Below, in pieces: positions 54,230 to 59,867 of a stretch of 64,000 bases of DNA. Numbering within the stretch: the first letter of the stretch is position 1; each line of letters starts with the position of its first letter. The notes under the pieces were generated by a model. That model was not told the DNA's origin. It did not search any database and saw only the letters and a program-made list of their open reading frames with translations. Origin of the DNA: Sneathiella glossodoripedis JCM 23214. GTDB taxonomy: Bacteria; Pseudomonadota; Alphaproteobacteria; Sneathiellales; Sneathiellaceae. Both the position numbers and the translations under genes were made by a program. The DNA is taken from positions 1 to 64,000 of the forward strand of contig NZ_BAMS01000008.1 of assembly GCF_000616095.1 (NCBI RefSeq), in the 5' to 3' direction.

Positions 54230-54278
54230 CTTGGCACTCCCTAATGCACTGCGCGATGCGCTGGCAATTGTTCAGTGC

Positions 54279-54446
54279 CCCCTCTGTCCATGAACCTGAA
54301 AGATTACCGGGTTGCCCGGGTACCTCTTCGGTGGAGTCAATTAAACTCGCTCTCCAGAGCCGTCACTTCCTGTCGGTACTTTTGCCTGAGAGTTTCCGGG
54401 GCGGTTGCTCCTTCGGCGCTGACATGAGTCAATCTCTCCCAACAGG
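54279..54446 (-). promoter_or_regulatory. Tandem glycine riboswitch upstream of sdaA
   Basis: Read on the minus strand, aptamer 1 shows GGGAGAG, GCGCCGAAGGAGCAA and CTCTCAGGCAAAAGTACCG. Aptamer 2 follows after a short linker with CTCTGGAGAG, CACCGAAGAGGTA and CTTTCAGGTTCATGGACAG. These are the conserved parts of the gcvT-type glycine aptamer in the usual tandem order. It ends about 50 bases before the sdaA start and should switch its expression with glycine. Confidence 0.9.
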
Positions 54447-54512
54447 AATATTCAGGAGTAATAATATTTTCAAACTCAGGCTAGGGGTCTGCTTCGTATC
54501 AGTCAAGAACTA

Positions 54513-57338: not shown

Positions 57339-57403
57339 TAAGATAGAATTTTACTCGTGAAACGTAATGCAGTTACCGTGCCAATTTTTCTGCTGCGTCT
57401 AGG

Positions 57404-58003
57404 TCACCGGATCGTTTCTCGTAGTTTTTTCCAGTTTTCAACTCTATCCTTCGCATCTGAAACCTGCTGAGTATCAAGCATGCTAATAAGTTTTTCCTTT
57501 AATCGGATGATGCGTTTGTATGTTGTGGAGTTTTTTGTTCCTGCTTCAGCAAGCAACAACCATTTCAGTGCTTCAACATCGTCCCTTGATGTTAGCTCTT
57601 TGCTCACTAACACTTGAGAAACAGCCAGTTGAGCGTTTGGATCTCCAGCTTCTGCTTTGGGTAGCCACTTTAGCAGAGCTTTTTGACTCTCGCGGTCAAT
57701 TTTTCTGAGAACGTTTGACAGCATTTGTTGAGACATAGGATAATTTTGCCCAGCGGCAAGTTCATACCATTTTGCTGCGGCAAAAAGATCCCGCTTGGTG
57801 CCTTGCGCATTCTCATACATATACGCCAGATTAAATTGGGCTTCGGCTTCACCAGCGTGAGCGGCTCTTTGCCATAGGGTAAAAGCTTTTGCATGATCGC
57901 CGTTCAGATATGCGTCCTTAGCCGCCTCTGCTTGTACCGGTGCTTCACTAAGCAGCGTTACCATGACAATGATTGCTGCTATTTGGCATGGCCAGAAGCG
58001 CAT
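57404..58003 (-). CDS. SEL1-like repeat exported protein
   Basis: A 199-residue protein with a signal peptide (cleavage near VQAEAA) and three to four SEL1-type helical repeats: AAHAGEAEAQFNLAYMYENA, AAGQNYPMSQQMLSNVL and AEAGDPNAQLAVSQVLV. Such repeats mediate protein-protein contacts in the periplasm. No partner is apparent. Confidence 0.78.
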   Translation of the reverse strand: MRFWPCQIAAIIVMVTLLSEAPVQAEAAKDAYLNGDHAKAFTLWQRAAHAGEAEAQFNLAYMYENAQGTKRDLFAAAKWYELAAGQNYPMSQQMLSNVLRKIDRESQKALLKWLPKAEAGDPNAQLAVSQVLVSKELTSRDDVEALKWLLLAEAGTKNSTTYKRIIRLKEKLISMLDTQQVSDAKDRVENWKKLRETIR

Positions 58004-58294
58004 TATATGAACCCATCATTTTGTGAGTAGACGTTAAAAACATTCACGAATGATAGAATCACAGAAAAGCCTAACAATTTCAACGTTTTTCACAAAATAG
58101 ATACTCTTTTGAGGTGATTAGTTCTTGCAAATGCCCCTTTAAGGGGAAAATCCAAAAGTAGAAAATTTAAGCGGATTTTTAGTAAATGAATTTTTTTTGG
58201 TTATTTTTTGTAACTAAAGGTATGAAAAAATTGAATTTTTTAAAATTATAATGCGTGAGGATCTAAAAAATGAATAAATGTCAAAAATGACAAT
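58004..58294. other. AT-rich gap with TGTCA palindromes
   Basis: No gene is visible. The stretch is very AT-rich with several A/T runs and ends in clustered TGTCA/TGACA repeats at 58280-58303 that overlap the promoter of the RNA candidate: TGTCA, four bases, TGACA, three bases, TGTCA. These may be an operator. Confidence 0.4.
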
Positions 58295-58323
58295 TTGTCA
58301 TTTGAGAAAAGCCGTGCTAGTAT
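58295..58323 (+). promoter_or_regulatory. Promoter of the RNA candidate
   Basis: TTGTCA at 58295-58300, a 17-base spacer and TAGTAT at 58318-58323 form a sigma-70-like promoter. The -35 lies inside an inverted repeat (AAATGACA and TGTCATTT with a 3-base centre), so a bound regulator could block it. Confidence 0.5.
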
Positions 58324-58329
58324 TCTTAA

Positions 58330-58612
58330 AGATCAGAGAACTGGACAAAAAGATCCAGGATTGGTCTGAACTGTCTCCTATTTCTCTAGGTTGAGGAAAC
58401 TGTCAGTGAGAAGGAAGGCGCTCCATTTTTGGGGTGAAAGCATTAAGTCCGGTGCTTCCTTCCGGGATGAGATCTGAATGTAGGGGTTCGAAACCATCTT
58501 TGCATATCGGATTTAGGATATAAAAGATGCCAGGGCCAAGGCAGAAATAAAAATAAAATGGCCTGACTATCTGGGAACCCTTGTCCGGCGGACAAGGGTT
58601 TTTCTTTGAGAG
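58330..58612 (+). ncRNA. Candidate structured non-coding RNA
   Basis: About 280 bases between a promoter and a strong terminator, with no ORF of coding quality. The sequence folds by eye into a chain of local hairpins: CTGGA/TCCAG at 58341-58358; a branched domain closed by GGAAGG/CCTTCC around 58413-58470; GGTT/AACC inside GATG/CATC; GCATATC/GATAT with ATGC; and GGCCA/TGGCC just before the terminator. The pieces do not match tmRNA, RNase P RNA, SRP RNA or 6S RNA as I know them. The function is unknown; it could be a regulatory sRNA. Confidence 0.5.
58576..58607 (+). terminator. Strong Rho-independent terminator
   Basis: AACCCTTGTCC pairs perfectly with GGACAAGGGTT across a 3-base loop and is followed by T-rich sequence. 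It ends the RNA candidate, since no plus-strand gene precedes it closely. Confidence 0.9.
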
Positions 58613-58617
58613 CAGAC

Positions 58618-58641
58618 AAAAAATATGGCCCCGAAGGGCCA
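58618..58641 (-). terminator. Terminator of the acyl-CoA dehydrogenase gene
   Basis: On the minus strand TGGCCC, a 4-base loop and GGGCCA are followed by TATTTTTT, 28 bases after the repaired stop codon of the acyl-CoA dehydrogenase. Confidence 0.8.
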
Positions 58642-58669
58642 TAAATGCAGTTAGCGTTTTATTGAAAAA

Positions 58670-59867
58670 TCACCCTGCGTATCGCCTTACAATCTGTTTG
58701 CCCAGTGAGTTCATGTGAACTTGGTCGGGGCCATCTGCAAAACGAACAGTACGCGCATAGGCAAAAGCTTCAGCAAGAAACGTATCTTGCTCAAACCCAT
58801 TGCGCCATGAGCCTGAATTGCGCGATCTATAACCGTTTGCGCCATGGTCGGGGCAACAATCTTAATCATCGCAATTATGTCTTTGGCATCTTTATAAGTA
58901 CCTTCATCCATCTTTTTGGCTGCTGACATTGTTAGCAGACGAGCCTGTTCAATTTCGCAAACTGATTTTGCAATGTCTTCACGGATGGAGCCCTGCTCGC
59001 TTAGTTTTTTTCCAAACGCAACTCTGTTTTCCACGCGTTGACACATCAACTCCAGTGCCGCTGTGCGCATCCGATAAGTCGCATACAATGGTGAATTCTG
59101 CCGGGTCCCAGGCGCCCTTGCGCTATTGCAAAACCACCACCTTCTTCGCCAATAAGGTTACTGACTGGGACACGTACATTTTTAAATTCTATTTCTGCAT
59201 GTCCATGGGGTGCGTCGTCAGAACCAAAGACTTTCATCGGCCGGATTATAGTAACGCCAGGTGTATCTCGGGGCACCAAAATCTGGCTTTGCTGTTGATG
59301 ACGAGGTGCGTCCGGGTTTGTTTTACCCATTAAAATAAAGATTTTACATCTTGGGTCGGGCGCACCACTTATCCACCATTTTCGACCGTTTATTACATAT
59401 TCGTCCCCCTCTCTTTTGATAGAGCACTGAATATTTGTCGCATCAGAGGAGGCAACGGCGGGTTCCGTCATAGCAAAGGCGGACCGGATTTCTCCATTTA
59501 ACAATGGGATCAGCCATTTCTGTTTTTGCTCCTCTGTACCATACCGTGCCAAAACTTCCATGTTGCCGGTATCTGGCGCGCTACAGTTAAAAGGTTCAGC
59601 TCCGATAAGTGAGCGCCCCATTATCTCTGCAAGTGGCGCATATTCGAGATTGGTTAGGCCTGATCCATATTCGTCAAATTCTGCGAGAAAGAGATTCCAA
59701 AGCCCTTGCTCTTTGGCTTTTTTCTTCAATTCTTCCATGATTGGCGGAATGCTCCAGCGATTGCCGGAGTTTTCGATGTGATCGTGGTATTCAGCCTCTG
59801 CAGCGTAGACATATTCATTCATAAATGCTTCCACACGCCGCTTTAAATCTTCTGCTTTCTCAGACAT
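58670..59867 (-). pseudogene. Acyl-CoA dehydrogenase, two frame changes
   Basis: A flavoprotein acyl-CoA dehydrogenase of about 400 residues in three frames. The N-terminal part includes [17 protein letters not shown] and [10 protein letters not shown] (FAD/substrate region). The middle has [17 protein letters not shown] and [10 protein letters not shown]. The last frame gives [16 protein letters not shown] to the stop at 58670. One missing C near 59058 and one missing G near 58788 restore a single frame. The many conserved parts suggest an intact enzyme of fatty-acid breakdown. Divergent from a LysR gene. Confidence 0.85.

Follow-up and report, generated by a model that had tools for sequence, protein, structure and literature searches.

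Does a stretch of DNA that carries a promoter, a strong fold and a terminator but no reading frame give rise to an RNA with a function of its own, and from what would such an RNA have come? The question is raised by a locus in a 64,000-nt stretch of Sneathiella glossodoripedis JCM 23214 (contig NZ_BAMS01000008.1; genome G000 of our set), hereafter referred to as the window. A sequence-only reading of this locus had described a sigma-70-like promoter, a strongly folding stretch without an ORF and a perfect 11-base-pair terminator, and had proposed a structured RNA candidate of unknown family. We followed this proposal through the genus Sneathiella and found, beyond what had been noticed before, an operator over the promoter, conservation concentrated mainly at the two ends of the predicted RNA, and signs of descent from a protein-coding mRNA.

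The predicted RNA and its boundaries

Table 1. Features of the predicted RNA locus, in window coordinates.
Feature	Position	Strand	Description or basis
Operator	58279..58300	+	TGTCAAAAATGACAATTTGTCA; consists of two overlapping palindromes and overlaps the -35 hexamer; 0 or 1 mismatch in 23/23 loci
Sigma-70-type promoter	58295..58323	+	TTGTCA, 17-nt spacer, extended -10 TGCTAGTAT
Predicted noncoding RNA, ~277 nt	58330..58606	+	Start inferred from promoter, end from terminator
Conserved 5' hairpin	58330..58367	+	Variable outer stem, internal loop, YUGGR-C...AAGA-UCCRG inner stem
Variable middle	58368..58525	+	Folds locally; occupies the position of the NMO coding body; unmatched in long forms
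3' element, remnant of NMO C-terminal codons	58526..58566	+	Homology; pair counts; synonymous constraint in coding relatives
Intrinsic terminator	58576..58607	+	11 perfect pairs, 3-nt loop, T-rich tail

The promoter of the window (TTGTCA-17-TAGTAT with an extended -10 TG) is by itself a match near chance level, as 5 promoter-like sites were found in 57400-59600 against a mean of 3.4 in shuffled sequence. It was confirmed by its geometry, in which TTGTCA is followed after 14 nt by TGNTA identically at all 23 loci recovered from the genus; the promoter row of G021, with TGCTAATAG at +14, fits this spacing as well. The terminator was likewise found as described, at 58576-58600 (AACCCTTGTCC-GGC-GGACAAGGGTT, then TTTCTTT), and terminator-like stems, several of them different in sequence, occupy the corresponding place in relatives; a generic terminator scan did not list the window terminator in its output. 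The stretch between promoter and terminator folds more stably than expected (-92.8 kcal/mol vs. -77.9 on average for shuffled sequences; z = -3.09; stability reached by 1 of 200 shuffles) and contains no ORF of at least 40 aa on the plus strand, in agreement with the sequence-only reading. The longest ORF inside the RNA has 29 aa, a 45-aa plus-strand ORF begins in the terminator and leaves the RNA, and a minus-strand ORF of 79 aa overlies it.

We also ran the Rfam covariance search that had been suggested. None of the Rfam 15 families (6S, tmRNA, RNase P, SRP, riboswitches and others) reached its gathering threshold within the RNA, and in a permissive search every match to the RNA stayed below its cut-off (best E = 0.063). 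The same search of eight loci in relatives, four from each of the two forms described below, revealed no family at the corresponding place and only glycine riboswitches elsewhere. Tandem glycine riboswitch aptamers also lie in the window itself (54274-54451, minus strand), upstream of a gene that is presumably L-serine-dehydratase-like, and were present in seven of the eight relative loci scanned. The absence of an Rfam assignment, together with the covariation reported below, supports the candidate as a structured RNA of unknown family.

Two forms of one locus across the genus

A BLAST search with the RNA sequence recovered only 3 of 59 other genomes, all within the genus. Synteny with the neighbouring PilZ gene placed the locus in 22 of the 24 Sneathiella genomes of the genus set, all 22 with the operator at no more than one mismatch, and in G012 a 3.1-kb contig that does not include the PilZ gene bears the operator, the hairpin and a gene for nitronate monooxygenase (NMO). 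Promoter and operator were thus found in 23 of the 24 genomes, the exception being G006 (66% complete), from which the locus was not recovered. In most genomes the other flank has genes for an acyl-CoA dehydrogenase (ACAD), LysR and RsmI; G016 lacks the ACAD gene, and in G017 RsmI alone was seen within the stretch examined. In the window, the ACAD gene beside the RNA (58711-59867, minus strand) is split over at least two frames and is an intact ORF in three relatives; MutS of the window genome is likewise split, and both cases are probably assembly indels.

The locus exists in two forms. In the long form (13 loci: G001, G002, G003, G008, G009, G012, G013, G015, G017, G019, G020, G021 and G022), the operator and promoter are followed by one to four leader hairpins, an ORF for a 323-aa NMO with the 3' element in its last codons, and a terminator; the one long-form protein scanned matched Pfam PF03060 (E = 1.4e-25). 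In the short form (10 loci: G000, G004, G005, G007, G010, G011, G014, G016, G018 and G023), the NMO body is absent; the promoter is retained together with a 5' hairpin that shows covariation and with the 3' element, in RNAs of 237-448 nt as measured from a fixed distance past the operator. At one long-form locus (L121, 3226-3417, plus strand) a small CxC...CxxC protein, which we take to resemble bacterioferritin-associated ferredoxin, is encoded just past the NMO terminator.

When the 10 short RNAs were compared with the 13 long loci by BLAST, seven matched at the 5' end, with matches ending by nt 59, eight matched within the last 93 nt, and no match fell between the two ends. G005 matched at its 3' end only, and G014 and G023 had no BLAST match to any long form, their kinship resting on place, operator, promoter, hairpin and 3' stem. 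A translated NMO search of the short forms (E < 0.1) detected only the C-terminal end of the enzyme, in G016 (E = 0.007, with an internal stop codon) and G007 (E = 0.030). In our view, the locus in the window is probably transcribed into a structured RNA without a protein product, in which the two ends of an enzyme mRNA survive while its protein-coding middle is gone.

The covariance model of the 5' hairpin (R1) matched the window at 58327-58374 (E = 1.0e-9, the window being among the model's own rows), where it occurs once; the copies in NMO-form leaders stand in tandem with a period of ~46 nt (L127 and other long-form loci). Across 27 copies, 87.3% of cells were paired, 11 of 14 pairs had changed on both sides, and the covariation score exceeded that of all 500 shuffles, which ignore relatedness; slid controls were far lower (best 54.2% paired). 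For the 10 short forms alone, 89.2% of cells were paired and the score again surpassed all 500 shuffles, equally blind to relatedness, while the eight of 14 pairs changed on both sides (28 of 500 shuffles as high) and the number of further pair types (144 of 500) were unremarkable. All matches with E < 1e-4 across the order lay at the RNA/NMO locus, with one strong match per short-form genome; weaker matches occurred elsewhere in G004 (E = 0.0025) and, at E of at least 0.15, in others, one of them in G024. Within the class, the model matched 5 of 385 genomes, all Sneathiella, under stricter filters that may miss weak distant matches, and none of the 10 outgroup NMO genes examined showed the leader hairpin upstream.

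The 3' element has two GGCC segments (58534-58537 and 58560-58563) that can pair to enclose an A-rich loop; in short forms this stem is 96% paired with little variation. A pseudoknot through UGCC/GGCA is possible and partly supported, the extra stem that it needs being 74% paired in short forms. For the structure as a whole, 7 of 500 shuffles reached the covariation score and 104 of 500 reached the count of doubly changed pairs, and we regard the structure as plausible rather than established. The covariation check proposed in the sequence-only reading accordingly gave a strong signal in the 5' hairpin and a weak to moderate one in the 3' element.

Evidence of another kind comes from the 13 long-form NMO genes, in which 7.4% of same-residue codon pairs differ synonymously at codons 308-322, compared with 53.4% at codons 1-307. 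No 15-codon set was as low among 100000 random and 20000 residue-matched sets, and the lowest 15 of 311 windows of 13 codons each all start at codon 297 or later. Synonymous change within codons 308-322 is confined to codons 316 and 318, which belong to the unpaired part, and to codon 310 in one genome. Because the synonymous sites of the 3' element hardly vary in 13 coding species, the RNA itself is constrained. An overlapping +1 frame was rejected as the cause of this constraint, as variable sites place stops in that frame in G009, G020 and G022.

The operator and a proposed mode of action

The operator core, TGACAAWTTGTCA, occurs at one to five sites in each of the 24 genus genomes (0 for the backwards control), and the operator pattern was found in 5 of 385 genomes of the class, all Sneathiella. 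The genus total is 63 sites, comprising 23 at the RNA/NMO locus and 40 elsewhere, and 20 of these 40 were examined (18 plus two of G006). Among the 18, five are flanked by a TetR-type gene and an acyl-CoA synthetase gene, six lie at ACAD genes, one between an ACAD gene and another TetR-like gene, one upstream of an acetyl-CoA-synthetase-like gene, and five (L162, L164, L169, L176 and L178) at genes for which no lipid role is apparent, including one site within a reading frame. The two sites of G006 lie at a TetR/synthetase pair and between an SDR-like gene and mutS. Three TetR proteins encoded at operator sites match TetR_N, and one compared with NCBIfam matched several equivalogs, fatty-acid regulators included, all below cut-off. 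Because the operator core recurs at the TetR/acyl-CoA synthetase pair and at ACAD genes, a TetR-type fatty-acid regulator probably controls the RNA/NMO promoter; this link is drawn solely from the operator core, and the 5 of 18 and 1 of 2 sites without an obvious lipid gene speak against it. At L162 (1417; G000:C12:1572416), near a presumably MoxR-like gene, the core sits within a longer near-perfect palindrome, AAGTCATTTGACAAATTGTCAAATGACTT, which is perhaps a terminator or another site.

End homology, synteny, covariation, sub-codon constraint, an Hfq gene and a shared operator core were all observed by computation, and with moderate confidence we propose that the RNA descends from the mRNA of the long-form enzyme (NMO type B), is under TetR control, is loaded onto Hfq and acts on other RNAs. 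The sister clade still carries the complete NMO gene, and the window's clade would have lost the ORF body and retained the promoter, one leader hairpin and the 3' element, followed by a terminator. A TetR-type repressor of fatty-acid metabolism would occupy the operator over the -35 hexamer until an acyl-CoA released it, whereupon the RNA would be made. The 5' hairpin and the terminator would stabilise the transcript, Hfq could be loaded through the A-rich loop and the U-rich end, and the RNA might then act on other RNAs by base pairing or titrate a hairpin-binding partner.

The genome encodes Hfq (PF17209, E = 5.5e-31), and the predicted RNA has features of Hfq-type small RNAs, namely its own promoter and an intrinsic terminator with a U-rich tail. 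The A-rich loop between the GGCC arms (AAUAAAAAUAAAA or AAUAAUAAUAA-like) is of the ARN type, the motif defined for Hfq binding. Given the Hfq gene and the ARN-like loop, we favour a base-pairing small RNA as the leading interpretation, and the RNA is probably Hfq-bound, as judged from its sequence. A duplex scan of the RNA against the starts of five candidate target groups, crude in that it takes no account of accessibility and often returned duplexes of more than 100 nt, revealed no consistent pairing signal: the mean z was -0.19 for NMO type A (9 genomes), -0.69 for ACAD (3), 0.03 for acyl-CoA synthetase (4), 0.22 for TetR (5) and 0.04 for the neighbouring ACAD (3). Single low values were seen in G004 (-2.12) and G000 (-1.88) for NMO type A and in G011 (-2.48) for ACAD.

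Alternatively, the hairpin may be the private binding site of a protein or RNA that controls the NMO mRNA, and the orphan leader would then only titrate this partner as a decoy, with no Hfq-type pairing. The hairpin is indeed the best-supported structure of the locus, is present one to four times per long-form leader, and has its E < 1e-4 matches at one locus only. However, a decoy leaves unexplained both the sub-codon constraint of the 3' element and the retention of this element after ORF loss, and we consider it unlikely.

Origin of the RNA and comparison with known systems

The 3' element encodes QYAQAKAEINNK in the long forms, a natural NMO C-terminus; endings such as QYSAAKARLNLK and EFAQAIAETNAK occur in alphaproteobacterial outgroups (loci L214-L223). 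Since the element encodes an ordinary NMO ending, we take it to have originated as NMO coding sequence, which would make the short form the derived state; this is an argument from sequence, not proof. A MutS tree rooted on G024 (21 labelled rows) placed the two forms on opposite sides of one branch (support 98/97, present in 100% of 200 bootstrap trees), with weaker support for the short side plus the unlabelled G006 as a clade (85/81). Because the root of the genus lies between the two forms, parsimony cannot polarise the change, and its direction rests on the C-terminal homology instead. In the NMO tree, type B (the 13 long forms of the RNA locus) stands apart from type A, which occurs elsewhere in 9 of the 10 short-form genomes (not in the 56%-complete G016) and is closer to the G024 enzyme (69.8-74.4% vs. 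61.2-63.4% for type B). A TetR-like frame adjoins NMO type A in all nine of these genomes, and the one scanned scored just under the Pfam cut-off. Upstream of type A (L144-L152), GGACATATGTCC-like palindromes beside the TetR-like gene differ from the operator of the RNA locus.

The opposite history, in which a noncoding RNA came first and took up an NMO gene in the sister clade, would accord with the position of the tree root and with the outgroup G024, whose closest NMO is of type A and has neither operator nor hairpin beside the gene in the stretch examined. Yet a pre-existing RNA would then have spelled an ordinary NMO C-terminus by chance, and we hold this history to be quite unlikely. It is very unlikely that the short form is a transcribed relic, that is, a dead NMO gene whose functionless promoter and terminator linger. 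Type B could have become redundant given the NMO type A found elsewhere in nine of the 10 short-form genomes, and the middle of the RNA evolves freely, but the operator has at most one mismatch in all 10 short forms, the promoter spacing is constant and the changes in the hairpin are compensatory, although the MutS proteins of these genomes are only 75.5-89.6% identical. A small conserved protein is extremely improbable, because no ORF of at least 15 aa is common to the 10 short forms and the MPRPR.K or MPGPR.K reading that recurs at the 3' element hits a stop within 5-7 codons in G000, G005, G009, G020 and G022 (MPRPR.K frame), even though start codons with fair ribosome sites occur in some species (G014 and G007).

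Our results suggest that the RNA itself has a job that has outlived the enzyme gene. We put at roughly even chances the fuller account in which the ends of the mRNA already carried RNA functions, one of them inside the last codons, and in which, once one clade had lost the ORF, these functions by themselves preserved the gene, so that a dual-function mRNA became a small RNA, with the dual state still extant in the sister species.

Small RNAs from mRNA 3' ends are well known, including FarS, SdhX, CpxQ and MicL, and FarS ties such an RNA to fatty-acid control through FadR and fadE (PMC9438474). The Sneathiella RNA resembles them in that a coding gene is constrained as RNA near its 3' end (codons 308-322 of the 13 NMO genes of the sister clade), in its terminator and in its predicted Hfq-type features. 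It differs in that the parental coding gene shares the transcript in the sister clade only, being absent from the window and the nine other short forms: the short-form clade has lost the parental ORF and retains, behind the parental promoter, the 5' leader hairpin and the 3' element. This element, moreover, is situated within the last codons. Dual-function RNAs, exemplified by VcdRP (PMC8672173), are a second point of comparison, as the long form would combine coding and RNA-level roles in one transcript. The differences are that the protein of the long form is a complete enzyme of 323 aa and that the window's clade no longer has the coding role.

A further comparison is Xist, a noncoding RNA that owes part of its origin to the protein-coding gene Lnx3 (PMC2430539). 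Both are noncoding RNAs from a protein-coding gene whose coding role was lost, whereas the Sneathiella RNA is bacterial and has kept its promoter and transcript ends at the same place. Xist is eukaryotic, long and chromatin-acting. The long-form leaders also recall tandem glycine riboswitches in having repeated structured elements upstream of a metabolic gene, but the Sneathiella hairpin is small and has no Rfam family. A riboswitch was rejected as the leading reading: instead of an aptamer upstream of several genes or in many taxa, we found strong hairpin matches at the RNA/NMO locus only, one locus per genome in a single genus. Set against these known kinds, the Sneathiella locus differs in that the coding and the ORF-less states are both extant, with the 3' element inside codons.

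Among the papers listed in the literature searches we saw no earlier case of a bacterial dual-function mRNA losing its ORF, which does not prove that none has been published, and nothing that joins Sneathiella and small RNA; judged by titles, none of the work on nitronate monooxygenase and small RNA treats such a locus. To our knowledge, the birth of a bacterial small RNA has seldom been observed with the earlier and the later state available for direct comparison. Here, the coding and noncoding states of one locus occur within two groups of one genus, and the constraint on the RNA can be measured inside the coding gene of the sister species. If confirmed, these findings would show that selection can act on the RNA ends of an mRNA while its protein can be dispensed with, and the transition from mRNA to small RNA would become directly testable.
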